This document shows positions 2,974 through 48,300 of a stretch of 64,000 bases of DNA, piece after piece. The DNA is from Bacteroidia bacterium. Its GTDB lineage: Bacteria > Bacteroidota > Bacteroidia > UBA4408. Position numbers and translations under genes: made by a program. Below the pieces are notes generated by a model, which searched no databases, was not told the DNA's origin, and worked only from the letters and a program-made list of their open reading frames with translations. The stretch lies in NCBI GenBank assembly GCA_020845635.1, contig JADLFI010000012.1, positions 1-64,000 on the forward strand. The letters run 5' to 3'. Each line of letters opens with the position of its first letter. Positions within the stretch are counted from its first letter, which is position 1.

Positions 2974-3021
2974 TTTATATATATATTTATTTAATGAGGT
3001 CTTTAGCCGGCAAGCTTGTTC

Positions 3022-3099
3022 CGTTTCCCTACGTCAGCATTATCTGAATCAGGTTCTTCGGGTATAATCTCAGCCTTAGCAACAGCTAAAGCACCCCTA
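3022..3099 (-). promoter_or_regulatory. TPP (thiamin pyrophosphate) riboswitch, THI element
   Basis: Read on the minus strand, this segment contains the conserved THI-box core. GGGGTGC lies near the 5' side, GCTGAGA follows, then ACCCGAAGAACCTGAT, CAGATAATGCTGACG and AGGGAA. These are the hallmark strings of the TPP aptamer. It lies about 50 bases upstream of the ATG of the TonB receptor at 2973. A possible switching partner is visible: the P3 strand CUUUAGC (3091 to 3085) can pair with GCUAAAG downstream (3007 to 3001), competing with the aptamer's own P3 partner. Aptamer identity is nearly certain; the expression mechanism is inference. Confidence 0.96.
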
Positions 3100-3116
3100 T
3101 TTAAAATTTAATAGGG

Positions 3117-20046: not shown

Positions 20047-20063
20047 TTTAGAATAATTCTAAA
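20047..20063 (+). promoter_or_regulatory. Fur/PerR-like operator of the haem-type cluster
   Basis: TTTAGAAT-A-ATTCTAAA is a perfect 8-1-8 inverted repeat. Its inner 7-1-7 core TTAGAATnATTCTAA has the same architecture as Fur and PerR boxes (TGATAATnATTATCA and TTATAATnATTATAA). It occupies the spacer between the -33 and -7 positions of the promoter at 20067-20074, where a bound repressor would block RNA polymerase. The palindrome is seen directly; the identity of the regulator is inferred. Confidence 0.65.
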
Positions 20064-20066
20064 TAA

Positions 20067-20074
20067 TACTTTTG
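20067..20074 (+). promoter_or_regulatory. -7 promoter element of the haem-type cluster
   Basis: TACTTTTG is an exact TAnnTTTG box, four bases downstream of the palindrome. Transcription would start near 20081, giving an AT-rich leader of about 83 bases before the ATG at 20164. The -33 region (about 20044-20047) is a weak match. Confidence 0.6.
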
Positions 20075-20163: not shown

Positions 20164-21423
20164 ATGAATATGAAAAAGAATTTACTTGCGTTTGCTTTTA
20201 GTTTAAGTGTATTTTCTTTGTCGGCCCAAATGGTTAACGATACAGTTTCATTAAGTCCTACCTACGCCAATCAATCTTGGTATAGTTTAGAGAGTGGAAA
20301 TAAAGGCTCAGCCCCAAAAAACAATTGGGATTTAGCTTTTGAAATTAGTGGTTTTGGCACCTCAGTACATATAAATTCCATAAATGGAACAATGCTATGG
20401 ACTTACCCCAATGGCGCCATTGATGCATTTGCCACAGCCGACACAGCCGGAATAACAGGATGGACACCACAGTACAATAGCGATACATCATGGGTATTAG
20501 GAGCTTTTGACCGCAATATGGTATTAAGTAACGCCAACGATGTGGGTTGGGGAGTTTATAATCCAATAACGCATAATATTATTGGCGATTCGTTATTCAT
20601 TATAAAATTAGCCAATGGCGATTACAAAAAAATAGCTATTGAAAGTGTTATTGGCGGAGGATATAATTTTAAGTATGCCAATATTGATGGTAGCAATGAA
20701 GTAAGTCATTTTATTTCAAAATCAAGTTTCAGCGGAAAGAATTTTGGATATTATTCGCTTCAAAATGACTCAGAGCTTGATCGTGAGCCTGTAGCAAGCG
20801 TTAACTGGGACTTATTGTTTACCCAATATACTGCTTTTATACCTGTACCATATACCGTTGCAGGTGTGTTATTAAATAAAGGAGTAAGGGCTGTAAAGGT
20901 TGCCGGAGTAGGTGATGTAGATAACTATAACGACTGGTTTACGCATAATTTTGAAACCCCTATAAATATTATTGGGAGCGACTGGAAATCATTTACAGGT
21001 GGGGCTTGGGAAATTCAGGATTCTCTTTTATATTTTGTAAAGAGTAAAAATGGAGATATCTGGAAAGTAGTTTTTACCGGATTTGGAGGATCGGCTACTG
21101 GAAATTATATATTTAAGAAAGAAAAATTGAGTACTACCGGAATTAATGATGCTGATATTTCATCATCTGTGTCTATTAGTGTTTATCCTAACCCGGCTAA
21201 TTCCGAAAATGTTTACCTGATTTGTAATTTTGAAAATAATTTTAGTAATGCTTCTTATACAATATATGATTTGTCGGGTAGAGCAATTGAGAACCAAAAA
21301 ATAAGTACCCAAAAAGGGATGAATGTTTATAATATAAATAGCTCTGTGTTAAGTTCAGGAGTGTATTTATTATCAATAAATGTTGATGGCAAAATAATAA
21401 ACCAAAAATTAATTAAAAACTAA
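20164..21423 (+). CDS. HmuY-like secreted protein with T9SS sorting domain
   Basis: This 419-residue protein has a signal peptide ending near SLSAQ. Its HmuY-like region includes WYSLESGNKG followed by NNWDLAFEI (about 38-62), and later WDLLFTQYTAFIP with PYTVAGVLLNKG. The last 80 residues are a type A T9SS C-terminal sorting domain: VYPNPANSENVYL, YTIYDLSGRAIE, SGVYLLSINVDGK and a basic end QKLIKN. It is thus expected to cross the outer membrane by the type IX system and be released or anchored on the surface. HmuY proteins capture haem. It shares motifs with the lipoprotein at the other end of the cluster, so the two are paralogues. His residues in SVHIN and ITHN are candidate ligands. Ligand identity is inferred. 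Confidence 0.8.
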   Translation: MNMKKNLLAFAFSLSVFSLSAQMVNDTVSLSPTYANQSWYSLESGNKGSAPKNNWDLAFEISGFGTSVHINSINGTMLWTYPNGAIDAFATADTAGITGWTPQYNSDTSWVLGAFDRNMVLSNANDVGWGVYNPITHNIIGDSLFIIKLANGDYKKIAIESVIGGGYNFKYANIDGSNEVSHFISKSSFSGKNFGYYSLQNDSELDREPVASVNWDLLFTQYTAFIPVPYTVAGVLLNKGVRAVKVAGVGDVDNYNDWFTHNFETPINIIGSDWKSFTGGAWEIQDSLLYFVKSKNGDIWKVVFTGFGGSATGNYIFKKEKLSTTGINDADISSSVSISVYPNPANSENVYLICNFENNFSNASYTIYDLSGRAIENQKISTQKGMNVYNINSSVLSSGVYLLSINVDGKIINQKLIKN

Positions 21424-21453
21424 GTAAGTAAAATTTAGATAATAGAATTTAGA

Positions 21454-22410
21454 ATGAGCAAGAAAATAATATTCAATTTACAAAAGCTATTTTTGTTATT
21501 TCTTTCGGTAGTGGCTCTACAAGCCTGTAATAGTAATGCCGAGAATAAGAATAATGTGGCAGATGAAAATGTTCCCCAAAAAATTGGCGTGTTATTGGTA
21601 AATCATGGATCACGTTCTGAAACATGGCGCAAAGCATTAACCGATTTTGAGGATAAAGTGAAAGACCGTATTTTGGCAGGTGGCGAAATTAAAGGCACTA
21701 AAACGGCTCACATGGAATATACCGAGCCATCAATAGCTACAAGGCTTAAAGAGTTTGATGCAGAAGGCTATACAGATGTAATTATTGTACCTGTTTTCTT
21801 AACGGTAAGTCCGCATACATTTGACGATATTCCTACCATTATTGGTCAGAAAGAAGATGCCCAATCAAAAGAAGCTTTGAAAATTGAGAAAATTGAACGT
21901 TATACCCCAAAAGCAAAAACCTATATAACTCCAAATCTTGATTTTACAGATATATTAAAAAAGAATGTATTGCGCAGAGTTAATGCTTTATCAAAAGAAC
22001 CATCAAAAGAAGGAATTGTACTTATTGGCTATGGTGATGAAACTTACGATAAAGAATGGGGACAGCTGTTTGATGATGTTGCCGAATATGTAAAAGAAAA
22101 TACCGGCATTAATAAGCATAGCTATGGTTGGTGTGGTCATATAGTTAGATATAACTCTGATAAAACTACCGAAGCTATTAATACCGTATTGAAGGAAAAG
22201 GAAAAAGCAATTGTTATTCCGGTACTTGTAGCTCACGATGAAGAGTTTCAGATAAGAATTATTGGTGGGGGAGTAGATAAAGTTAAAGATTCTAAGCAAA
22301 GAGTAAGCTACAAGCCTGATGCAATATTGCCCGATGAAAATGTAGAACAATGGGTAATTGATATTACTTCTGAATATATTAAAAAAGTAAAAAAACAAAC
22401 AGCATTATAA
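21454..22410 (+). CDS. Lipoprotein with class II chelatase (CbiX/CbiK-like) fold
   Basis: This 318-residue protein starts with a lipoprotein signal (lipobox LQAC, Cys25) and carries two chelatase-like halves. Half 1 has VLLVNHGSRS (His51), MEYTEPSIATRL and VPVFLTVSPHTFDDIP (His121), closely resembling the cobalt/sirohydrochlorin chelatase CbiX. In half 2 the matching HG becomes GYGDE (Tyr193), while VPVLVAHDEE keeps a His (His261). Known enzymes of this class insert Co, Fe or Ni into tetrapyrroles in the cytoplasm. A lipid-anchored form outside the inner membrane, inside a TonB/HmuY cluster, suggests metal removal from or insertion into an imported porphyrin, or pure binding. No cobalamin synthesis gene is near. 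It starts 30 bases after the first HmuY-like gene. Confidence 0.82.
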   Translation: MSKKIIFNLQKLFLLFLSVVALQACNSNAENKNNVADENVPQKIGVLLVNHGSRSETWRKALTDFEDKVKDRILAGGEIKGTKTAHMEYTEPSIATRLKEFDAEGYTDVIIVPVFLTVSPHTFDDIPTIIGQKEDAQSKEALKIEKIERYTPKAKTYITPNLDFTDILKKNVLRRVNALSKEPSKEGIVLIGYGDETYDKEWGQLFDDVAEYVKENTGINKHSYGWCGHIVRYNSDKTTEAINTVLKEKEKAIVIPVLVAHDEEFQIRIIGGGVDKVKDSKQRVSYKPDAILPDENVEQWVIDITSEYIKKVKKQTAL

Positions 22411-22417
22411 CACTGAA

Positions 22418-22993
22418 ATGGCAGGCTGGAATATTAAAAAATTAAGACGGTTAAACATAGCCACTCACCGAGATTTAGGTTATTTTTTTTCATCACTTAT
22501 TTTAGTGTATTGTATTTCCGGAATTGCTTTAAATCATGTTGACGATTGGAATCCCGATTTTATTCTAACCAAAACTACTGTGCAACTTGATAAAGAATAC
22601 CACGCCCAAGATATTAATGATAATGTAATTAATGAATTTGGAAAGTTAGTAGGAGAGGAACATTTTAAGGTATATGATGCTCCAACCAGCGATCAGGTAA
22701 AAATTTATTATAACAATGCCTCTTTGCATATTAATTTAAGCACCGGTGTTGGTATTTATGAACAGGTTTCAAAACGCCCTATTGTATATCAATCAAACGT
22801 GTTGCATAGAAACAGCTTAAAAGGGTGGAAATGGATTTCAGATATATTTGCAGTTTTGCTAATAGTTATTAATATTACAGGTTTATTTATTTTAAAGGGT
22901 AAACACGGAATTACCGGACGTGGTAAATGGCTTATAGCGGCAGGTATTGTTCCTCCGTTGATAGCAGTAATTATTCAGGCTTTTCAACCTTAA
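22418..22993 (+). CDS. PepSY-associated inner-membrane protein
   Basis: This 191-residue protein fits the PepSY-TM type proteins (COG3295). Helix 1 (about 22-40) follows RRLNIATHRDLGYFFSS. A periplasmic PepSY-like domain spans about 45-125, and two helices follow (about 135-160 and 168-188) around the conserved KGKHGITGRGKW loop. Conserved His residues near the membrane (THRD, LNHVDD, VLHRN) could hold haem or assist ferric reduction. Related PepSY-TM proteins (PiuB/FoxB-like) sit beside TonB receptors and help release iron in the periplasm. It begins 8 bases after the chelatase gene and ends 4 bases before the receptor gene, so they form one operon. Confidence 0.8.
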   Translation: MAGWNIKKLRRLNIATHRDLGYFFSSLILVYCISGIALNHVDDWNPDFILTKTTVQLDKEYHAQDINDNVINEFGKLVGEEHFKVYDAPTSDQVKIYYNNASLHINLSTGVGIYEQVSKRPIVYQSNVLHRNSLKGWKWISDIFAVLLIVINITGLFILKGKHGITGRGKWLIAAGIVPPLIAVIIQAFQP

Positions 22994-22996
22994 CGT

Positions 22997-25267
22997 ATGA
23001 GAGTATTTTTATCCATATTGGTTATTTTTGTTCTGGGGCAAGTGCCTTTTGCCAAGGCTCAGGTCATAAAAGTATTTTCATCTGTTGATTCAAAGCCCAT
23101 TCCATTTGCACATATCAAAGTAGTTGATTTAAAACAAAAAAAAGAAACCACGCTTGTTTCTGATGAAAATGGAAAATTAAATTTATCAATAGCAGAGAGC
23201 ACTCCATTTAAGTTTATAATTACTATTTCGTTCTTAGGATTTGAGTCGCTTACCGATACAATCAGTAAAACAGAGGATAAGATTTATTACTTAAACCCAC
23301 AGAGTACAGCTTTAAACGAGTTTGTAATTACCGCACAATATTCACCTAACAGCCCCGAGAAGGCGGTGCATAAAATTAAAATTATTGACAGTAAAAAAAT
23401 TGAAGCAATGGCGGCTGTCAATTTAAAAGATGTATTAACAAACGAACTTAATATTAGATTATCTGAAGACAATATTTTAGGAAGCAGCATGAGTTTACAG
23501 GGTATCTCAGGACAAAATGTAAAGTTGTTAATTGATGGGGTTCCGGTAACCGGTCGACTCAACGGAAATATTGATATTTCACAAATAAATATGAATAATG
23601 TTGATAGAATAGAGATGGTTGAGGGGCCTTTGTCGGTAAGCTATGGTACTGATGCCTTGGGGGGAACTATCAACATCATTACCAAAAAATCTCAAAAAGA
23701 AACTGTTTCGTTTTTGTTGAATAATTATTATGAAAGTTGTGGTCAATACAACAGTACTGCAAAGCTTGGATTTAAAAAAGGAAACAGTACCATATCGGTT
23801 AGCGGGGGGCGTAATTTTTTTGATGGTTGGAATTCTTATGAAGAGCCTTTTAGCGTTGAAAAAGTAAGAATAGCAGATAGTCTTAGATATAAGCAATGGA
23901 AACCCAAAGAGCAATATTTTGGAACGCTTAATTTTAGTCAGTTTATTCATCAATTAAAAATAAATTATACTACTGATTATTTTAATGAAATGATTACCAA
24001 TAGAGGCAAACCCCGTAAACCCTATATGGAAACGGCCTTTGACGAGTACTACCATACACAAAGAATAAACAATGCCATTAATTTAAATTATCAACATAGC
24101 AAGCATTATTTTTTTAACATGCTGGCGGCTTATAATATTTACAATCGCATAAAATCAACCTACTTAAACGATTTAACTTCTTTAGAAAAAGTATTAACCG
24201 AAAGTGCCGAAGATCAAGATACTGTTGGCTTTAATAACCTTTTTCTGAGAGGAGCATTGAGTAAAGCAAAAGACAGTACCAAAGTTAATTATGAAATAGG
24301 ATACGATATAAACCTAGAAACAGCCTCCGGAAGACGTATTGAAAACCGTTCAAAAAATATGTCTGATTATGCTTTGTATAGTAGTGCTGAGCTCAAACTA
24401 ATTGATGGTTTTGTGGTTCGTCCGGGATTTAGATTAATTTATAACAATATATATAAAGCTCCCGTTGTACCTTCCATAAATTTAAAATACACTCTCCCTT
24501 CAAGCAGCAATAATAAGACTTTAACCATGCGGGGGTCTTATGCTCGTGGTTTTCGTTCACCTTCATTAAAGGAATTGTATTTTTACTTTGTTGATATTAA
24601 TCATTATATTGTAGGGAATGAAAATTTAAAGGCCGAAAATTCCGATAATTTTAATTTTGCCATTAGTTATAACAGAAATACTGGTGAACGTGTTTACAAA
24701 ACAGAGCTATCGGCTTTTTATAATAGTATAAGTAACATGATATCATTGGTACAATCTACCGGGGATGTATATAGCTATTTTAACATTGACCACTTTAAAA
24801 CTACGGGTGTTCAGTTGCAGAATGAAGTGTCGGTGAGTCATTTTAAATTGGGGATGGGGGCAGCCTATATTGGACGAAACAATGAAATGAATGGTATTAT
24901 CAATGATAAAGGATATCTATTTTCGCCCGAGGCGCGCTGTAACATAATGTATGAGTGGCATCAGCAAAATACTACCTTCTCTATGTTCTATAAGTACACG
25001 GGTAAGTTTCCATCCTATATTTTAAATGCAGATGGCTCGTATTATAAAAACACCATACAAGATTATCATACGGCAGATTTTACTGCAACTAGGCATTTTT
25101 TTAGAAAAAGAATTGTTTTTGGGCTAGGTATAAAAAATATATTTGATGTTAGAAATATTAGCGGAATAGCAGCAGGAACGGGACATACTTCTTCTTCCAA
25201 CAGTGTGTCAGTGGCTATGGGGCGTACCTACTTTTTAAAATTAGATTTTAATTTAGCAAGCCATTAG
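22997..25267 (+). CDS. TonB-dependent receptor, haem-receptor-like
   Basis: This 756-residue receptor has a signal peptide (cleavage near AKAQ), a CarboxypepD_reg-like domain (about 22-105), a plug (about 125-235, with LKDVLTNELNIRLS and the VEGPLSVSYGTDALGGTINII segment) and a barrel to a terminal His. The barrel contains GFRSPSLKELY (519-528), a His at 536 and GNENLKAE (540-547). This reproduces the order FRAP box, His, NPxL box used by haem receptors such as HemR and HmuR. Similar boxes also occur in other small-ligand receptors, so a corrinoid remains possible. Position between the PepSY protein and an HmuY-like lipoprotein favours haem. No cobalamin riboswitch is present. Confidence 0.85.
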   Translation: MRVFLSILVIFVLGQVPFAKAQVIKVFSSVDSKPIPFAHIKVVDLKQKKETTLVSDENGKLNLSIAESTPFKFIITISFLGFESLTDTISKTEDKIYYLNPQSTALNEFVITAQYSPNSPEKAVHKIKIIDSKKIEAMAAVNLKDVLTNELNIRLSEDNILGSSMSLQGISGQNVKLLIDGVPVTGRLNGNIDISQINMNNVDRIEMVEGPLSVSYGTDALGGTINIITKKSQKETVSFLLNNYYESCGQYNSTAKLGFKKGNSTISVSGGRNFFDGWNSYEEPFSVEKVRIADSLRYKQWKPKEQYFGTLNFSQFIHQLKINYTTDYFNEMITNRGKPRKPYMETAFDEYYHTQRINNAINLNYQHSKHYFFNMLAAYNIYNRIKSTYLNDLTSLEKVLTESAEDQDTVGFNNLFLRGALSKAKDSTKVNYEIGYDINLETASGRRIENRSKNMSDYALYSSAELKLIDGFVVRPGFRLIYNNIYKAPVVPSINLKYTLPSSSNNKTLTMRGSYARGFRSPSLKELYFYFVDINHYIVGNENLKAENSDNFNFAISYNRNTGERVYKTELSAFYNSISNMISLVQSTGDVYSYFNIDHFKTTGVQLQNEVSVSHFKLGMGAAYIGRNNEMNGIINDKGYLFSPEARCNIMYEWHQQNTTFSMFYKYTGKFPSYILNADGSYYKNTIQDYHTADFTATRHFFRKRIVFGLGIKNIFDVRNISGIAAGTGHTSSSNSVSVAMGRTYFLKLDFNLASH

Positions 25268-25269
25268 AA

Positions 25270-26250
25270 ATGAAAAAAGTAAATAAACTTATTTTTATAT
25301 TGTTAACTGTCATTTCGATGTCCTTCATGCAATCATGTATGAAAGACGAGTTGCCTATTCCCAAACACGATCCGGGCAATGTAATTACGGCTACTTTTAA
25401 TTGGGGGACAAGCTATAATTTGCAGGTCTTTTACAGTCTTGAGTCAAATAGTATTGTAAGTAAAAATATTAAATCTATTTGGGATTTAGGATTTGAAACC
25501 AAAGATAGTAGTTATCATATACTACTTAACTCAGCTAAATTTATGTTTGCCTATAATACCGGAAAAACTGATTTTAATTCGGTTAGCGATACTGTAGGAT
25601 TAGGGTATTATGGGAAATGTGATGCAGCAAGCGGAAACTATGATTCAACAGCCATAGGAAATTGGGTAAATACTAATCATGTTTATATAATTGATAGAGG
25701 ATATGACGAGGTAGGGTATCATAAAGGGTATAGAAAAATTCAATTTTTATCAGTTTCAAACACTCAATACAAGCTTCGTGTGGCAAAAATAAACGGGTTG
25801 GGTGATACTACTTTAGTAATAAATAAAGATAATAAATACAATTTAGCTTATTTGTATTTAGAAGATAACACTCAGCCTATTATTGAACCTCCAAAAGATG
25901 ATTGGGATATTGTATTTACGCAATACACTCACGTTTTTACAGACCCTTACCAACCTTATATTGTTGCCGGATGCTTATTGAACAGGAATAATACTTTAGC
26001 TGCTGTAGATAAAGAATTACCATTTGGAGAAATTGCCTTTGAGAATGTTTATTCCTACTCTTTTTCTGATGAGTTAAATACCATTGGTTATTCTTGGAAA
26101 ACCTTTGATGGCGATAATTATACCGTAAATTACAAATACAATTATATTATTAAAAACAGCAAGGGATATTATTACAAATTACATTTTATTGATTTTTACA
26201 ACAGCAGCGGTGTAAAGGGAAATCCTAAATGGGAATATCAAAAATTGTAG
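25270..26250 (+). CDS. HmuY-like lipoprotein
   Basis: This 326-residue lipoprotein has the lipobox MQSC followed by MKDE. The Lys-Asp-Glu directly after the Cys resembles the surface-export signal of Bacteroidota lipoproteins, so it is probably exposed on the cell surface next to the receptor. The HmuY-like elements are VFYSLESNS, SIWDLGFETKDSSYH, WDIVFTQYTHVF and PYIVAGCLLN. These match the T9SS-exported protein at the start of the cluster motif by motif. It starts two bases after the receptor stop codon, so expression is tightly coupled. The probable task is haem capture and delivery to the receptor. His residues in SSYHIL, NTNHVY and VGYHKG are candidate ligands. Confidence 0.8.
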   Translation: MKKVNKLIFILLTVISMSFMQSCMKDELPIPKHDPGNVITATFNWGTSYNLQVFYSLESNSIVSKNIKSIWDLGFETKDSSYHILLNSAKFMFAYNTGKTDFNSVSDTVGLGYYGKCDAASGNYDSTAIGNWVNTNHVYIIDRGYDEVGYHKGYRKIQFLSVSNTQYKLRVAKINGLGDTTLVINKDNKYNLAYLYLEDNTQPIIEPPKDDWDIVFTQYTHVFTDPYQPYIVAGCLLNRNNTLAAVDKELPFGEIAFENVYSYSFSDELNTIGYSWKTFDGDNYTVNYKYNYIIKNSKGYYYKLHFIDFYNSSGVKGNPKWEYQKL

Positions 26251-40671: not shown

Positions 40672-43125
40672 TTAGCCTAAATTGTATTTGGTTTTCTTTA
40701 CTCTTTCTCTGATAGCAATACTTGTGCCTATAATCATAATTAGGCAGCCTAACCACAAAATATTGATAAATGGAAATATAATGGCTTTTAGAATAATAAA
40801 CTCTTGATTAGGACTATCGCTTTCGTATAGTTCAATGTCAATTTTTCCGGTTTGAGGATTAATATTGCGAAACGATAATTTTAATCCCATTTCGTTAACT
40901 ACCTCATCAATGGAGTTTGGAACATTGCCTTTAATAATATACACCGGATTGGCAACAAAGGTATTGTTGCGTATATCAGTTATTCTGAATTTGGCTGCAA
41001 TAGCTATATCATTATGCCCAAAGTGATATTTTAAAGAATCCGTCTCTTTATAAATATTTTCAAGTACTATAATACTTTTGCTTCCAAATAAAGTATCGCC
41101 AGGAAGCATGGAGGCAGAAGCAAATTTCTTAAATTTATCGTCAGTCTGGTTTCCATGTTGTTGTTCTTCACGCGCAGGTTCCATTTCAGCATAAGTAATA
41201 TGGGTGTAAACATCTTTATGCCAATAATGCTTGGTGTCGGGCTCGGCCGAATTTCCCATACGAGGATTTGTTTGCACAATAGGGCTTAGCGTAAATTTGT
41301 ATATATATTTACCCTTTTTGTTGCGGGTAAAGTAATCAATATCAAAATAATGATTAACGCCTTCAATTCTTCGCCCTTTATATGTCAGAAAATATTCGCC
41401 CATTTTTAAAGTATCGTTTTTGGCGAGCATTATGTTCTCCATATTGTTAAATTCCTTTCCTAACTTGCTGATATCAACTCCCGATGTGTTTTGAGATATA
41501 ATTCTGCTTTTTCCTGTGGCTACCAACGCGCCTAACAAAATCATAGCAAAACCTACATGGGCAATTGAAGCTCCGGCTTTGCGTACATCACCATTTAATA
41601 CTTTAAATATATAGTCAATATTAGCCACTATAGCAAAGAATGAACTGAAAAACAGGGCTATTAAGAAAGCATTATAAAGCTTAAGGCTAAATACTACTAT
41701 TACCGTAACTACCACAGAAATGATGATAGAAATTAATAGTTTCTTGAATACAATTTTTATATCGCTATGCTTGTATCTTAAAAACAAAGTAACAGCCATT
41801 AGAAAACTGATAATAATAGCAAAAGGTATTTGCCAAGAATTATAGTGTTTTACGGCATCTACCGGAGGAGCTAAATTTGTTCCCAAAATTTTATTGATAA
41901 CCGGAATAGAAGTTGTAAACGTAATTTGGAAAGATGATACTAATAAAACCAGAGCTGCAATAAGCATCCAAAATTCTCGAGAAGTACTGTTGTCATCGGC
42001 CTGGTTGTTGCTTATGCTTTTGTAATTTTTAAGCAAAAAGAAAGCAGCCAAGAATACATAAAACAATAAATATACCAATAATTGCCCACTCATTCCGAGG
42101 TCGGTAAAGGCATGAACTGAACTGTCGCCTAACACTCCCGAACGAGTTAAAAAGGTAGAGTATAAAACCAACAAAAACGATAAAACAGTTAGAGTATAAG
42201 CTGTAAATAATGATTGTTTACGGCTTTTGTAAATTAACATAACGTGAGCAGCACCTACCATTATTAACCATGGGACAAGCGAGGAGTTTTCTACAGGATC
42301 CCATGCCCAAAACCCACCAAAGCTTAACGATTCATAGGCCCAGGCACCACCTAACAATATACCCGTACCAAATATCATTATGCTGAAATATGCCCACGGC
42401 AAGGCTGGTGTAATCCATTCTGTATGGCGCTTTGTCCATAAGCCTCCCATTGCAAATGCAAAAGGAACTAGGGTAGAGGCAAAGCCTAAGAATAGCACAG
42501 GCGGATGTATGGTCATCCAATAGTTTTGAAGTAAGGGATTAAGACCGCGCCCATCCAAATTTGACAGATAGGAAGGAGATTGAATAAAAGGCAAGGACAT
42601 GAAATCGGGATGCTCACGTAGCAATATAAAAGGATTGCTGCCTAAATGATAATCAAAAATATAAATGCCTAAAAGCATTGATGTAAGAAACACTTGTACT
42701 GAACTGAATATGGTCATTACAGGTGCTTCAAAATTTTTCGATTTTCGACTTAAAATTACACCCAATACTACATTCCAGAAGGCCCACAAAAGAAAACTGC
42801 CCTCCTGTCCTTCCCAAAAACATGAAAAAATATAACGCAGGGGCAAGTCTCTTGAAGAATGTTGCCAAGCATATTGATACTCAAAATAATGATTGAGTAT
42901 AATATAGAATAGTGTTCCTACTATTCCGAAAATAGATACACCATGAATATAAAATGCTGTACGACCTATATTTTGCCATGATTTATCAAGTGTAGATGCA
43001 GATGATTTTCCGGCAAAAAAATAAGCTATGGTTGAGAGTAATGCAGCGGTAAAAGACAGAACAATAAAAAAATTGCCAAGTTTACCCGGTAGCAGATGCT
43101 CGTTAAGGTATTGAATTTCCTCCAT
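40672..43125 (-). CDS. ccmF: Cytochrome c haem lyase subunit CcmF/CcsA
   Basis: This protein of about 817 residues is an inner-membrane haem-handling protein with many helices. The Trp-rich WWD motif is FGGFWAWDPVENSSLVPWL (about 270-290). His-containing helices around MTIHPPVLFLGF and SGVLGDSSVHAFTD are the expected haem ligands. A large periplasmic region (about 545-780) with many strands precedes the last helix. It presents haem to apocytochrome c. I chose the ATG at 43125; the TTG at 43128 just adds one Met. It is encoded in the run ccmB-C-D-E-F; ccmA, ccmG and ccmH are not present in this window. Confidence 0.93.
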   Translation of the reverse strand: MEEIQYLNEHLLPGKLGNFFIVLSFTAALLSTIAYFFAGKSSASTLDKSWQNIGRTAFYIHGVSIFGIVGTLFYIILNHYFEYQYAWQHSSRDLPLRYIFSCFWEGQEGSFLLWAFWNVVLGVILSRKSKNFEAPVMTIFSSVQVFLTSMLLGIYIFDYHLGSNPFILLREHPDFMSLPFIQSPSYLSNLDGRGLNPLLQNYWMTIHPPVLFLGFASTLVPFAFAMGGLWTKRHTEWITPALPWAYFSIMIFGTGILLGGAWAYESLSFGGFWAWDPVENSSLVPWLIMVGAAHVMLIYKSRKQSLFTAYTLTVLSFLLVLYSTFLTRSGVLGDSSVHAFTDLGMSGQLLVYLLFYVFLAAFFLLKNYKSISNNQADDNSTSREFWMLIAALVLLVSSFQITFTTSIPVINKILGTNLAPPVDAVKHYNSWQIPFAIIISFLMAVTLFLRYKHSDIKIVFKKLLISIIISVVVTVIVVFSLKLYNAFLIALFFSSFFAIVANIDYIFKVLNGDVRKAGASIAHVGFAMILLGALVATGKSRIISQNTSGVDISKLGKEFNNMENIMLAKNDTLKMGEYFLTYKGRRIEGVNHYFDIDYFTRNKKGKYIYKFTLSPIVQTNPRMGNSAEPDTKHYWHKDVYTHITYAEMEPAREEQQHGNQTDDKFKKFASASMLPGDTLFGSKSIIVLENIYKETDSLKYHFGHNDIAIAAKFRITDIRNNTFVANPVYIIKGNVPNSIDEVVNEMGLKLSFRNINPQTGKIDIELYESDSPNQEFIILKAIIFPFINILWLGCLIMIIGTSIAIRERVKKTKYNLG

Positions 43126-43145
43126 CAAGAAAAGTTAAGTAAAAA

Positions 43146-43550
43146 TCAAATATTGCTAGTTGTTGTTTTTGAAGGATCGTCAGTATTGTTATATTTTGAT
43201 GGACATTTCATCAATATCTTATCGGCTACAAAAATATTGCCTTCAGTTTTGCCGGTTACTACTATCTGCTCACTCATTTCAAAGTCTTGCGGCTTAGGAC
43301 CTTTGTATATTACCTTTAATTCTTTATTTTCATTGTCTTTTAAATAAAAGACACACTTATTGGCATTTACTGCCGGATTATACTCAATCCCTTTATCTTT
43401 AACATATTTGCCTACTACATGGTATTCGCTACCCGGATTATCAAGTGCTACTCTAAAGGAGGCATAAGTGCTACTGTCGGCAACAGTCCCCATAATGGCA
43501 GCAATTGAAATGGCAATAACTACTAAAATAATGATATGAATTTTTTTCAT
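43146..43550 (-). CDS. ccmE: Cytochrome c maturation protein CcmE, Cys-type
   Basis: This 134-residue haem chaperone has an N-terminal membrane anchor (about 3-21) and a periplasmic OB fold with KVYDKGIEYNP-like strands: YVKDKGIEYNP, CVFYLKDN, LKVIYKGPKPQDF and EQIVVTGK. The classic haem-binding HxxxY is replaced by KCPSKY, a CxxxY motif (Cys116, Tyr120). This variant is known from Ccm systems of archaea and some bacteria that lack CcmH and CcmG-like reductants. The covalent haem bond then probably forms on Cys instead of His. It is flanked by ccmD and ccmF. Confidence 0.9.
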   Translation of the reverse strand: MKKIHIIILVVIAISIAAIMGTVADSSTYASFRVALDNPGSEYHVVGKYVKDKGIEYNPAVNANKCVFYLKDNENKELKVIYKGPKPQDFEMSEQIVVTGKTEGNIFVADKILMKCPSKYNNTDDPSKTTTSNI

Positions 43551-43557
43551 TTCTTTT

Positions 43558-43779
43558 TTAATGATTTGTTTTGTTAATCTCTTTCTCCAATTTATTTAAT
43601 TTTAAGTCTATACTGATAAGGTATATTATTATCCCTACAAATATAATACACAAGACACCAATTACAACGTAAATTTTTCCTGAACTTCTAAAACCATCAG
43701 CCATTTCAACACTTTGAGCCTGCACAGCAGGTACTATCATCAGCAAAAATATGCAAATAAGAGATAATATTTTTTTCAT
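43558..43779 (-). CDS. ccmD: CcmD-like small membrane protein
   Basis: This 73-residue protein has a signal-like N-terminus (MKKILSLICIFLLMIVPAVQAQ), a transmembrane helix (about 35-56, VVIGVLCIIFVGIIIYLI) and a charged, Lys-rich tail with coiled-coil character. Size, topology and position between ccmC and ccmE mark it as CcmD, which helps release haem-loaded CcmE from CcmABC. It is one base short of abutting ccmC. The sequence is poorly conserved, as usual for this protein. Confidence 0.8.
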   Translation of the reverse strand: MKKILSLICIFLLMIVPAVQAQSVEMADGFRSSGKIYVVIGVLCIIFVGIIIYLISIDLKLNKLEKEINKTNH

Positions 43780-43780
43780 A

Positions 43781-44446
43781 TTAATGGGTGTGTAATTTTT
43801 CTATTATTGACTTCATTCTTATTCTTATATTAAGAATCCAAACGGCTAAAAGACTCCAACCGATAATAGCCGGATAAAAAACAATTTTCATTTTTCCGTC
43901 TAAATCATAGCCACCAAAGCCCGGATTGCCGCCATTCCCGGGATGCAATGAGTCGGTCATCCGAGGAAGTACACCTAAAAACACAATCATCATGGTATAA
44001 GCAAATATGTTATAAATGGCACTTACACGTCCTTTCTTGTCATCATCACTAATAGTGTTTCTTAATATTAGGTAAGCAAAATAAAACAATAAACTTATAG
44101 CAGCACCATTAAGTTTGGCATCGTTTACCCACCAAGCACCCCAAGTATTATTAGCCCACAACGAACCGGTAGTTACCCCTAAAATACCCAAGAATAAACC
44201 TACTTTAGCTGCCTCAGCGGATACAATGTCATAATATTTAAACCCTTTGTTGAGGTAAATAACACCATAAATTACCGAAACGGATAATATTAGAATCATA
44301 GAAAACCACATAGTTACATGAAAATATAGGTTTCTGATGGATTCGTGTAAAATAGGCAATGCGGGTACAGGTAATAAAAAGCCGGCAATAATGGTATATA
44401 AAATACATATTATTGATAATATTTTCCACCACTTTAAAACTTTCAT
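43781..44446 (-). CDS. ccmC: Haem exporter/handling protein CcmC
   Basis: This 221-residue protein has six helices and belongs to the CcmC/CcsA haem-handling family. The WWD motif is WGAWWVNDAKLNG (about 106-118), which binds haem at the outer face. His residues ILHESIRNLYFHVTMW before it and LHPGNGG after it would ligate the iron. CcmC transfers haem to CcmE. The gene lies 46 bases after ccmB and ends one base before ccmD. The sequence fits the family in length and motifs. Confidence 0.94.
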   Translation of the reverse strand: MKVLKWWKILSIICILYTIIAGFLLPVPALPILHESIRNLYFHVTMWFSMILILSVSVIYGVIYLNKGFKYYDIVSAEAAKVGLFLGILGVTTGSLWANNTWGAWWVNDAKLNGAAISLLFYFAYLILRNTISDDDKKGRVSAIYNIFAYTMMIVFLGVLPRMTDSLHPGNGGNPGFGGYDLDGKMKIVFYPAIIGWSLLAVWILNIRIRMKSIIEKLHTH

Positions 44447-44492
44447 GTTTTAGTTATTACAAGGCAAAAATCTAGAATTATTAATTTTTAGC

Positions 44493-45140
44493 TTAATCCT
44501 GCCAAAGGTAAGGAAATAATATGTAAGATAATCCTAAAACAACAATATTAATCAATATTAACACGGTTAAATATGGGTAACAAACCGAATTATCAATTCC
44601 GTCAACGGCTAACTTTGAAACTTTAATTAATGTTATCAAAAAAGGAATAAGCATTGGAAAGCTTAAAATAGCCATCATGCTAAAATTGCCGTTGGTTTTT
44701 GAGGCAATGGCCGATATCATGGTTAGAATACTGGAAAAACCAATACTTCCTAATAGTAAAACCAACAAAAATATGGGTAAATTTTGTACCAAGTAATTGA
44801 TAAACATGGCATAAAACACAAAGCATAATAAGCTCATCAGTATCATTAGCAGTGCATTATATATCATCTTAGATAAGATTACCGTTTGTGGTTTTAAAAT
44901 AGTGTAATAGTATAACTGCCTACCCGGGCTATCTTGTGTGAAACTCTTAGAAATGGCATTAATAGAGGCAAAAAGCATTATTATCCAAAATAGTGCATTC
45001 CATGTAGCCGGATGAATAATATTGCGAAAAGATAGATAAGAAGTATAAACCGTGGCTATAACATATAAAAAAATACCTCCAAGAGCGTACTTATTGCGTA
45101 ACTCCAGTTTTATTTCTTTATAGATAAGTTGTAAGAGCAA
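44493..45140 (-). CDS. ccmB: Haem exporter membrane subunit CcmB
   Basis: This 215-residue protein has six helices and matches CcmB, the membrane partner of the ATPase CcmA. Features include LIYKEIKLELRNKYALGGIFLY, the family's N-terminal amphipathic start, NALFWIIMLFASINAISKSFTQDSPGRQLYYY and SILTMISAIASKTNGNFSMMAILSFP. The start is TTG at 45140, only 12 bases downstream of the terminator stem of tRNA-His. No promoter fits between, so the transcript may start before the terminator. CcmA is not in this window. Confidence 0.9.
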   Translation of the reverse strand: MLLQLIYKEIKLELRNKYALGGIFLYVIATVYTSYLSFRNIIHPATWNALFWIIMLFASINAISKSFTQDSPGRQLYYYTILKPQTVILSKMIYNALLMILMSLLCFVFYAMFINYLVQNLPIFLLVLLLGSIGFSSILTMISAIASKTNGNFSMMAILSFPMLIPFLITLIKVSKLAVDGIDNSVCYPYLTVLILINIVVLGLSYILFPYLWQD

Positions 45141-45631: not shown

Positions 45632-47167
45632 ATGGGCGAAATGAAGATTTATTCACAAAAACAAAACTGGAAAATAGCCTTAGGTGTTGGTGCCATAATT
45701 ATTATATTAGCATCATTGGCTTATACTAATTATATTATAAAAGAAATAGCCAATGATGAAAGAGCAAAAATTAAAATTTGGGCAGAGGCCATTCAAAAAA
45801 AGGCAGGATTGGTAAAATATACCAACGAACTGTTTGATAAAGTAAAAGCCGAAGAAAGAAAAAGGATTGAAATATGGGCAGAAGCATCTAAAATGCTTAC
45901 CATAAGCGAAACAAGTGCCGATCTTAATTTTTATTTGAGTATTTTAGATAATAACACCACCATTCCGGTAATATTGGTTGATGATAAACATCAAATAAAT
46001 TCATGGAAAAATATAGATGAAGTAGATAATATTCCATATAAAAACTTACCCCAAAGCCAGCAGAATAAACTGAATGAAGTGTTGGCGTATATGATGGAAC
46101 AGAATGATTCAATTTTGATTCCATTGCACGGGAAATCAAAAAATATTATTTATTACAGCGACTCAAAGCTTTTTAATGAATTACGCTTTACTATTGATGA
46201 TCTAATAAAATCATTTATTACCGAAATAGTCAATAACTATGCCTCAGTACCGGTAATTATTACCGATGAAAAAAAGGAAAAGATAATAGCTAGTGGAAAT
46301 ATTGATGAACTAAAAAACGCAAATAGTAATGATGTAAAGCAGATTATTGCTAAAATGAGTAAGCAAAATACACCCATTGAAATTGACCTGGGCGATCAAT
46401 CAAAAAACTATATTTTTTATCAGGATAGTTCTTTGTTGATGTTGATTAAATATTTCCCGTTTGTGCAGCTTGGGGTTATTGCTTTTTTGATAATTATAGG
46501 GTATAGTTTATTCAGCACAGCACGAAAGGCCGAACAAAACCAAGTATGGCTTGGTATGGCCAAAGAAACGGCTCATCAATTAGGCACACCTTTATCGTCA
46601 CTAATAGCCTGGGGCGAGTTGATGAAATCACGCTCGGACAATGGAGCTGAGTTTAAAGAAATTGAGAAGGACATACAGAGGCTTGAAACCATTACGGAAC
46701 GCTTCTCAAAAATTGGTTCGCAGCCGGTTTTAAAGAAGCAGGATATTAATGAGGTTTTACAAGATAGTGTGGAGTATATGCGAAGCCGAACTTCAAGTAA
46801 AGTGATATTTAGCATAAATGCCCCGCATAATCTTGAAGTGTTATGCAATAAGGCTCTTTTTGAATGGGTTATTGAAAACCTTATACGAAATGCTACTGAT
46901 GCTATGGAAGGCGAAGGTAATATTAGCATTAATGTGTACGATCAATCACAATTTGTATATATTGATGTTGAAGATACCGGTAAAGGCATTCCAAAATCAA
47001 AATTTAATACGGTGTTTAAGCCGGGCTATACCACAAAGAAAAGAGGCTGGGGATTAGGATTATCATTAACCAAGCGAATTATTGAAAATTACCATGGCGG
47101 AAAAATATTTGTAAAACGCTCAGAACCCGGAAAGGGTACAACTTTTAGAATAGTGTTAGAAAAATAA
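45632..47167 (+). CDS. Membrane sensor histidine kinase with duplicated sensor segment
   Basis: This 511-residue kinase has one N-terminal helix (about 14-32), an extracytoplasmic sensor (about 33-270), a second helix (about 275-293), then HisKA (KETAHQLGTPLSSL, phospho-acceptor His315) and HATPase_c (ENLIRNATDAM, DTGKGI, GWGLGLSLTKRI). The sensor is internally repeated: ERAKIKIWAEA and ERKRIEIWAEA at the N-side, then IPVILVDDKHQI and VPVIITDEKKEK, followed by YYSDSKL and FYQDSSL. The two units probably fold as tandem PDC/PAS-like modules. No response regulator is adjacent, so it is an orphan. hemW follows with a one-base overlap (TAATG). Confidence 0.92.
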   Translation: MGEMKIYSQKQNWKIALGVGAIIIILASLAYTNYIIKEIANDERAKIKIWAEAIQKKAGLVKYTNELFDKVKAEERKRIEIWAEASKMLTISETSADLNFYLSILDNNTTIPVILVDDKHQINSWKNIDEVDNIPYKNLPQSQQNKLNEVLAYMMEQNDSILIPLHGKSKNIIYYSDSKLFNELRFTIDDLIKSFITEIVNNYASVPVIITDEKKEKIIASGNIDELKNANSNDVKQIIAKMSKQNTPIEIDLGDQSKNYIFYQDSSLLMLIKYFPFVQLGVIAFLIIIGYSLFSTARKAEQNQVWLGMAKETAHQLGTPLSSLIAWGELMKSRSDNGAEFKEIEKDIQRLETITERFSKIGSQPVLKKQDINEVLQDSVEYMRSRTSSKVIFSINAPHNLEVLCNKALFEWVIENLIRNATDAMEGEGNISINVYDQSQFVYIDVEDTGKGIPKSKFNTVFKPGYTTKKRGWGLGLSLTKRIIENYHGGKIFVKRSEPGKGTTFRIVLEK

Positions 47168-48300
47168 TGGCTGGTATATATATACATATTCCTTTTTGTA
47201 AACAAGCCTGTACCTATTGCGATTTTTATTTCTCTACTTCCCCGGCCATGATAAACCCGGTAGCTGATGGGATAATAGCAGAGATTGACATCCGTAAACA
47301 TTTTTTTGATGGAAACGCACCAACAATCATTGAAACTATTTATTTTGGAGGAGGTACGCCATCAACCATGCAACCCGAATTGCTGGATAAAATAATAAAC
47401 AAAATTTATACTACATTTAAAATTAGTGCCCTTCCCGAAATTACTTTAGAGGTAAACCCTGATGATTGTAATATAGAGCGAATCAAAGCCTGGCAAAAGA
47501 TGGGTATAAATCGTATAAGCTGTGGCATTCAATCCTTTGAAGATGAAGATTTAAAGTTTATGAAACGCAGTCATAATGCCGTACAGGCCACAGATGCCAT
47601 AAAAAGAATGCAGGATATAGGTTTTGGAAATATAAATATTGATTTGATTTATGGTCTGCCTAATATGGACAATCTGACTTGGGCAGCTAATTTAGAGAAA
47701 GCCATTCAAATTAATATTCAACACTTATCATGTTACTGTTTAACGGTTGAAGAAAAAACTTTACTATCACATTGGGTTAAAAATAAAAGAGTTAAGTTGG
47801 ATGAAGAAATGGCTGCCAATAACTTTGAGTATTTGATGAGATGGGCTAATGACAACAATTTTGAACATTACGAAATATCAAACTTCTGTATGCCCGGATA
47901 TAGGAGCAAGCATAACAGTTCCTATTGGCAGGGTAAATCATACTTGGGATTAGGCCCTGCAGCACATTCGTACAATGGTAAAATTAGGCAATATAATATT
48001 CCTAATATGTTCACTTATTTGAAAGAGATTAATCAAGGTAAAACAGCCAACATTAATGAAGAATTAAGCCCTTTAGAAAAGTATAACGAAAAAATTATGA
48101 TTGGCTTACGATTGGCAGAAGGGATTAGTTTCACAGAGATTAAAGAATATTTAAACAGTGTTACGGAGCAACACTTCCAGAAGGCTTTGAAGCGTCAAAA
48201 CGATTTACAAAATATACAGCTTTACGAGCATCGTTTTGCCTTAACCCATAAAGGGAAACTTATTGCAGATAGTGTTATTGAAGATTTTTTTGCAGTATAA
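47167..48300 (+). CDS. hemW: HemW-like radical SAM haem chaperone
   Basis: This 377-residue radical SAM protein has the cluster motif CKQACTYCDFYFS (CxxxCxxC, about 10-16). FGGGTPST, LEVNPDD, GINRISCGIQSFEDEDL, HNAVQATDA, IDLIYGLPN and HYEISNF follow. The HemW signature HNSSYW is present, and the C-terminal HTH-like domain ends with LTHKGKLIADSVIEDFF. HemW loads haem onto respiratory enzymes rather than oxidising coproporphyrinogen. It overlaps the sensor kinase by one base. The nearby ccm genes show that this organism makes c-type cytochromes, but they are in a separate operon. Confidence 0.93.
   Translation: MAGIYIHIPFCKQACTYCDFYFSTSPAMINPVADGIIAEIDIRKHFFDGNAPTIIETIYFGGGTPSTMQPELLDKIINKIYTTFKISALPEITLEVNPDDCNIERIKAWQKMGINRISCGIQSFEDEDLKFMKRSHNAVQATDAIKRMQDIGFGNINIDLIYGLPNMDNLTWAANLEKAIQINIQHLSCYCLTVEEKTLLSHWVKNKRVKLDEEMAANNFEYLMRWANDNNFEHYEISNFCMPGYRSKHNSSYWQGKSYLGLGPAAHSYNGKIRQYNIPNMFTYLKEINQGKTANINEELSPLEKYNEKIMIGLRLAEGISFTEIKEYLNSVTEQHFQKALKRQNDLQNIQLYEHRFALTHKGKLIADSVIEDFFAV

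Follow-up and report, generated by a model that had tools for sequence, protein, structure and literature searches.

What would a lipid-anchored chelatase do in a gene cluster that appears to be built for the uptake of haem? The question is raised by a window of 64,000 nucleotides (positions 1 to 64,000 of contig JADLFI010000012.1, assembly GCA_020845635.1, from a Bacteroidia bacterium of the lineage UBA4408), in which five genes at positions 20164-26250 encode two HmuY-like proteins, a class II tetrapyrrole chelatase, a PepSY membrane protein and a TonB-dependent receptor. An earlier note on this window, made from the letters alone, had read the cluster as a haem-type uptake system and left the PepSY protein unexplained. 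In the present analysis, the PepSY protein was found to be the most constant partner of the chelatase. The operon may serve iron-regulated haem processing, with iron removed reductively from imported haem in the periplasm and the membrane protein acting as electron donor, a reading to which we give about an even chance.

A recurrent operon around a chelatase and a PepSY protein

The five open reading frames (ORFs) lie on the forward strand and are separated in the window sequence by gaps of only 30, 7, 3 and 2 bp. They encode, in this order, an HmuY protein with a C-terminal tail of the type IX secretion system (T9SS), a CbiX chelatase, a PepSY_TM_like_2 protein, a TonB receptor and a second HmuY protein, all above the Pfam curated cut-offs. 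The operon ends at 26250, and the flanking genes sit on the opposite strand. No HmuT, HmuU, HmuV or other ATP-binding cassette (ABC) genes were found in the operon by ORFs and Pfam, the rest of the genome not having been searched for HmuTUV. The order and the 2-30 base gaps reported in the earlier note thus agreed with the ORF coordinates and Pfam. Its gene readings were borne out as well: the T9SS-exported HmuY-like protein by PF18962, TIGR04183 and HmuY matches, the class II chelatase lipoprotein by a CbiX match and a lipobox cysteine, the PepSY membrane protein by PF16357 (63.6 bits, cut-off 27), and the FRSP-His-NENL boxes of the receptor by its sequence, with conservation of the first box and the histidine among relatives.

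The recurrence of this arrangement, for which the earlier note had proposed a neighbourhood search, was surveyed in the best 80 of 146 loci of named genomes, nearly all of them metagenome-assembled; the proportions describe the near family and not all exported chelatases. Loci L006, L007, L132 and L134, which are the same contigs as L015, L019, L045 and L040, were counted once. In 68 of the 80 loci, the gene directly after the chelatase, in the same orientation, was that of PepSY, with gaps mostly of -4 to 14 bp. Among the names given to the loci were Bacteroidota, Chlorobiota, Nitrospira, Chloroflexota, Armatimonadetes, Phycisphaerae, Verrucomicrobiota and Hydrogenedentota. At the core of the system stands this pair of chelatase and PepSY, which is spread over several phyla. 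The strict five-gene order was found in 19 of these loci, in addition to the window and to genome G039 (L008).

Moreover, the haem-uptake genes accompanied the pair and not the chelatase alone. Sixty-six loci were longer than 12 kb, 56 with PepSY and 10 without it; a TonB receptor was present within 6 kb in 40 of the 56 versus none of the 10, and HmuY within the same distance in 34 of the 56 versus none of the 10. Among 60 relatives, strong PepSY matches (E<1e-90) were confined to four genomes, each of which also had the chelatase. Since the first and fifth genes of the operon are the only two HmuY genes found in the 3.05-Mb host genome, and since the order recurs in 19 loci, the association of these genes is far beyond chance.

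Some additional genes were observed around the cluster. A small DUF6686 protein is encoded between PepSY and the receptor in L008 (9035-9400), and LuxR-type (NarL-like) response regulator genes lie just upstream of the cluster in L016, L017, L024, L043 and L047.

The chelatase

The chelatase gene (21454-22410, + strand) encodes a predicted class II (CbiX/SirB-type) lipoprotein of 318 amino acids, with a Pfam CbiX match of 57.7 bits (cut-off 22) and the lipobox LQA-C25; Cys25 was kept in 22/22 chelatases of the aligned five-gene-type loci. By sequence comparison, the family profile matched the CfbA, SirB and CbiX structures over the first half of the protein, and the chelatase was closest to sirohydrochlorin chelatases. 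The best NCBIfam models reached 71.2 bits, and F430_CfbA 69.5 bits, each against a cut-off of 120. A structural model was predicted with a predicted local distance difference test score (pLDDT) of 90.6, and its best match in the PDB was SirB (TM 0.56-0.62 by query and 0.68-0.76 by target), followed by HemH, CfbA and the periplasmic CbiK of Desulfovibrio vulgaris.

The metal ligands of SirB are His10, Glu43 and His76 (PMC11301274). These residues align with His51, Glu88 and His121 of the chelatase, which were invariant in 63 homologues. In the second half of the protein, W226-C227-G228-H229 was likewise invariant in the 63 sequences; judging from the repeat pattern, this motif would stand opposite the Glu-bearing strand of the first half and is a candidate for a second face of the tetrapyrrole site. 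Membership of the IhtB/CbiK family was considered and rejected: Pfam gave no PF06180 (CbiK) match in the chelatase and the family profile missed the exported CbiK proteins of L137-L139 and L143, IhtB being assigned to CbiK by its description.

In Chloroflexota, Armatimonadota and Ignavibacteria, homologues were found that have no signal and whose genes stand alone. They formed one clade with support of 100/99, surrounded in the tree by exported forms, the root of the tree not being established. Such lone chelatases in L062, L069, L071, L076, L077, L079, L082, L084 and L085 were about 59-66% identical.

Other arrangements of the chelatase were also detected. In green sulphur bacteria, two chelatases flank PepSY, and this tandem adjoins a TonB receptor in the Chlorobiaceae loci L067, L078, L094-L099 and L116-L119, one of which also has an adjoining flavodoxin-like gene. 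Exported proteins of about 590 amino acids that resemble two chelatase units were observed in L041 (5979-7748), L111 (448-2223) and other Nitrospira- or Rhodothermus-like loci; their neighbours are permease and TonB receptor genes in Nitrospira and HmuY in L111. Far-diverged exported CbiX-type chelatases had an adjoining HmuY gene in all six loci tested (L105, L107, L108, L109, L111 and L112), and hmuY stands next to cbiX in a published map from Rhodothermus (PMC6987092); the pairing of an exported class II chelatase with HmuY is therefore recurrent. L108 also contains DUF4198, which has been linked with flavinylation clusters of PepSY.

The PepSY protein and its flavin-type replacement

The PepSY_TM_like_2 protein (22418-22993, + strand) has three predicted transmembrane helices and is a candidate trans-membrane electron donor in the inner membrane; PF03929 matched at 25.1 bits, under its cut-off. 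Its residues His17, His40, His104 and His130 were kept in 22/22 relatives, with His40 and His130 invariant in 53. No relatives were found in the PDB by sequence. PepSY proteins of PF16357 have been described as having three helices and serving trans-membrane electron transfer or iron reduction, with extracytosolic iron reductase activity in VciB (PMC8238504), and FoxB-type relatives hold haems between pairs of histidines (PMC11334425, PMC13038864).

A replacement in this position was observed in G052 (L009) and G543 (L145), from two other families. There the operon consists of the T9SS-tailed HmuY, the chelatase, a membrane protein of 460-470 amino acids with FMN_bind and Fer4_5 domains, the receptor and HmuY, and PepSY is absent from both loci. 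The two membrane proteins are 50% identical and both carry the flavinylation motif DAVSGAT; the chelatases beside them are the diverged, 48%-identical ones, and the G543 locus additionally has a gene with a hemerythrin domain. Combinations of the FMN_bind/Fer4_5 type have been linked to periplasmic electron transfer, as in NapH-like flavinylation systems (PMC8238504). Because one electron carrier replaces another here, the job of the PepSY slot would be electron supply, and this swap weighs most among the arguments for such a role. From these comparisons, no partner of the chelatase is more constant than the protein that the earlier note had left without a role, and it is probably the source of the electrons that reductive de-chelation requires.

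HmuY proteins and TonB receptor

The first gene (20164-21423, + strand) encodes an HmuY-like protein with a C-terminal T9SS sorting domain, a predicted secreted or cell-surface haemophore. Pfam matched Por_Secre_tail (PF18962) at 42.8 bits and HmuY (PF14064) at 34 bits (cut-off 27), and NCBIfam matched TIGR04183, the T9SS type A sorting domain. The conserved residues M3-K4 suggest that the true start may be at 20170, and His137 was kept in 22/22 relatives. The fifth gene (25270-26250, + strand) encodes an HmuY lipoprotein (Pfam HmuY, 54.2 bits) in which Met92 was kept in 22/22 relatives; in the PDB only a weak match was found by sequence (E 0.21). Its N-terminus, C-M-K-D-E, fits C-X-K-(D/E)2, the signal for surface export of lipoproteins (PMC5080379). 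This signal was strictly present in 7 of 22 HmuY lipoproteins, most of the others being close to it, and in none of 21 chelatases, so the HmuY lipoprotein is predicted to be exposed at the surface and the chelatase to face the periplasm.

Between PepSY and the second HmuY gene, the TonB-dependent outer-membrane receptor (22997-25267, + strand; Pfam Plug and TonB barrel) would have an HmuR-like role. It contains the FRSP-His-NENL boxes; in the family, FR-x-P and His536 were kept in 21 of 22 receptors, and the second box is GN-x-x-L, degenerate relative to NPNL.

Promoter region and iron-related neighbours

A perfect palindrome, TTTAGAATAATTCTAAA, was found at 20047-20063, with the 7-1-7 layout of a Fur-family operator, and is a candidate iron-responsive site. 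It was the only match in the window even at up to 3 mismatches. About three such loose matches would be expected in the window by chance, and the weight of the palindrome therefore lies in its perfection and conservation. The 7-1-7 core TTAGAATNATTCTAA, at up to 2 mismatches and within the 300 bp that precede the first HmuY gene, was present in 11 of 21 five-gene loci against a background of 1.95% of random segments, giving a binomial P of ~5e-14, a value that overstates independence as some of the loci are close relatives. When at most one mismatch was allowed, just 24 sites were found in 1.38 Mb, most of them preceding the first gene of the cluster. We infer from its sequence that the palindrome is a Fur site. 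Adjoining it, TACTTTTG (20067-20074, + strand) reads as a candidate Bacteroidota -7 promoter element; it fits TAnnTTTG, which we take to be the -7 consensus of this phylum.

Related loci gave further indications of iron and haem. In Runella, the palindrome precedes a Fur gene (PF01475) that opens the operon, between the site and the chelatase; the operon of R. limosa DSM 17973 and R. defluvii DSM 17976 runs Fur, chelatase, PepSY, receptor, HmuY. In G543, the site is found before a DUF4856-imelysin gene pair as well. In two Cyclobacteriaceae loci, the chelatase is preceded at 21-26 bp by the gene of an ABM protein that is related to structures of the haem degraders HmoB/IsdG and has NCBIfam haem-degrader scores under the cut-off. 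The palindrome was also seen before two of the five LuxR-type regulator genes mentioned above.

A possible reductive route for haem iron

The mechanism that we propose would begin with the two HmuY proteins, one exported by the T9SS and the other a surface lipoprotein, which would collect haem for the TonB receptor to carry into the periplasm. In that compartment the lipid-anchored, SirB-like chelatase, whose His-Glu-His triad is intact, could run in reverse and pull iron from haem. The PepSY protein, or the flavin/iron-sulphur NapH/NosR-like protein in some relatives, would pass electrons across the inner membrane to the chelatase, and this delivery would make the iron Fe(II) and thus releasable. 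Fe(II) would then presumably be taken up by a Feo-type transporter.

The haem-type uptake proposed in the earlier note is well supported by the HmuY neighbours, the Fur-like operator and the apparent haem auxotrophy of the host, and is also backed by the absence of HmuS from the host and by the IsdG-like and Fur genes of related operons. The haem and iron part of its interpretation therefore stands, but the idea of an exported class II de-chelatase is not new, having been raised for IhtB, and an exported class II enzyme is also known in the periplasmic CbiK of D. vulgaris.

Several observations weigh against the proposed iron removal. Class II chelatases are known for inserting metal, and disruption of a cobalt chelatase gene of the cbiK type in Bacteroides fragilis left haem-iron use unaffected, according to an unpublished result as cited in PMC6460266. 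A haem auxotroph also needs intact haem, and the destruction of haem would not obviously be its main purpose. Some HmuY proteins bind metal-free porphyrins (PMC12106395). The best NCBIfam match of the receptor was a B12 receptor (119 bits, cut-off 600), with the haem-receptor models behind it at 95-98 bits and all of these matches far under cut-off. A FoxB fold was looked for in the PepSY protein, and comparison of its model with the PDB by Foldseek gave no significant match, FoxB included; the reductase role therefore rests on the Pfam family, the conserved histidines and the partner swap. Finally, because the signal-less homologues occur as lone genes, the enzyme also works in other settings.

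A wider claim is put forward more tentatively, at slightly less than an even chance: that the operon represents a second, evolutionarily independent way of removing iron from haem without oxygen outside the cytoplasm, in which a reversed class II chelatase is coupled to a dedicated PepSY or covalently flavinylated NapH/NosR-like donor, in auxotrophs and prototrophs of several phyla. If true, the job of HmuS would have a second and unrelated solution; the operon also gives a possible explanation of how environmental Bacteroidota, Chlorobiota and Nitrospirota use haem. With a small chelatase and its candidate donor in one transcription unit, the reaction and the electron supply are both directly testable.

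Alternative roles of the operon

Four other roles were weighed, and they are given in falling order of probability. The first is suggested by the haem economy of the host, whose genome (G000) is 99.99% complete. Neither HemB nor HemH was found in it, and no PF02514 match (HmuS/CobN) was detected in the whole genome, which has four COX1 homologues (haem-copper oxidases). The window contains CcmF/NrfE-, CcmE-, CcmC- and CcmB-like genes (40675-45140, - strand) and HemW (47167-48297, + strand). The earlier statement that no haem synthesis gene is near holds for genes making haem, but these ccm and HemW genes, 14-22 kb downstream, do use or handle it. Since the host lacks HemB and HemH yet has oxidases and ccm genes, it needs haem and presumably imports it, and the imported haem is apparently the source of its haem c. 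The chelatase, whose fold is a tetrapyrrole-binding one, could in such an auxotroph be a periplasmic carrier or chaperone that passes haem intact from the receptor, with PepSY reducing haem or being itself a haem protein. Such a carrier role is unlikely. The catalytic metal triad, needless for a carrier, is invariant in 63 sequences, and a dedicated partner for electron transfer is better explained by chemistry than by carriage. The operon is also carried by G003, G039 and G052, which have both HemB and HemH, and is therefore not only an auxotroph's tool.

Another metallo-tetrapyrrole could be the substrate, of the corrinoid, sirohaem, nickel or chlorophyll type, with the receptor as a B12-like importer. 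The top NCBIfam match of the receptor (TonB-B12) and the closeness of the chelatase to sirohydrochlorin chelatases agree with this role. According to the earlier note, its reading would fall if this gene order were found only beside corrinoid genes or cobalamin riboswitches. No cobalamin riboswitch was found in the 64-kb window, nor at up to 5 kb from the cluster in 21 loci, the single one in Runella lying about 9 kb from the cluster, and the corrinoid reading was rejected as the main idea on this search. With every receptor match far under cut-off, and with HmuY, IsdG-like, Fur and imelysin neighbours indicating haem and iron, a substrate other than haem is unlikely.

The chelatase could also work forwards, as an extracytoplasmic ferrochelatase that replaces HemH and inserts iron into scavenged porphyrin, with PepSY giving Fe(II). 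Class II chelatases naturally insert metal and the insertion needs Fe(II); the porphyrin could come from those HmuY proteins that bind it metal-free (PMC12106395), and G009 has the operon and, as in the host, no HemB or HemH. We hold this to be improbable: G003, G039 and G052 have HemH beside the operon, which excludes a general replacement, and the Fur-like operator and in-operon Fur suit iron acquisition better than haem synthesis. Lastly, a supply of copper or general metal to the haem-copper oxidases, of which the host has four, is very improbable, since it leaves the conserved HmuY and the tetrapyrrole chelatase unexplained and the operator is Fur-like, even if CrpH, a PepSY_TM copper reductase beside a copper TonB transporter, is described as supporting oxidase function (PMC13038864, PMC12914433).

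Elsewhere in the window, a thiamin pyrophosphate riboswitch (3009-3108, - strand) lies upstream of an 801-amino-acid protein (571-2973) that has no NCBIfam match and is possibly a thiamin-related outer-membrane receptor.

Comparison with known systems

No description of the chelatase-PepSY pair was found in the literature searched; in a figure legend of PMC12106395, some of the hmu-like loci are marked as having pepSY and T9SS genes. The hfpR-DoxX-hfpY operon of Flavobacterium psychrophilum (PMC9331221) shares with the present one a TonB receptor, an HmuY-family haemophore, an iron response (predicted in the present case) and the absence of HmuS, but has neither chelatase nor PepSY, and a Fur box is not mentioned in that paper. 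The PepSY_TM reductases FoxB, VciB and CrpH and the flavinylation-linked PF16357 proteins belong to the same Pfam family as the PepSY protein, with three transmembrane helices and conserved histidines in or next to them; the partner in FoxB-type systems is a siderophore system, whereas here it is a chelatase, and no structural match to FoxB was found.

SirB of Bacillus subtilis and CfbA have the fold and the H-E-H metal triad of the chelatase. Both are biosynthetic and have no export signal, whereas the protein described here is a predicted lipoprotein with WCGH in its second half and haem-type neighbours. CbiK-P, the periplasmic cobaltochelatase of D. vulgaris (PMC4063343; structures 2xvx and 2xvz), is an exported class II enzyme of the same fold (TM 0.57/0.67), but the family profile does not detect it by sequence. 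We know of no HmuY or PepSY partners of CbiK-P.

The Hmu system (HmuYRSTUV) of Porphyromonas and Bacteroides has in common with the operon one or more HmuY haemophores, a TonB receptor, an exported tetrapyrrole chelatase and an expected need for a reductant. HmuS belongs to class I and is a large, CobN-like protein of the membrane, in contrast to the 318-amino-acid class II lipoprotein with PepSY found here without HmuTUV in the operon. How iron is released from haem without an oxygenase was answered only recently, for HmuS, whose de-chelation needs a reductant of still unresolved source in vivo (PMC12583661, PMC13227078).

Another precedent is the Iht (IhtB/FetB) system of P. gingivalis, in which a TonB receptor likewise occurs together with a lipid-anchored, exported chelatase of class II. 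For this CbiK-like protein, IhtB, removal of iron from haem has been proposed (PMC10913741, and PMC6460266 citing Dashper 2000). The chelatase of the present operon is CbiX/SirB-like and has no PF06180 match; the Iht system includes the ABC genes IhtCDE, of which this operon has none, and PepSY and HmuY are not among the listed Iht parts. As judged from sequence, what is new relative to IhtB is the CbiX/SirB-like family, an operon free of ABC genes and a constant candidate partner for electron transfer, and with these features the operon revives the hypothesis, first raised for IhtB, that iron is removed from haem by such an enzyme.

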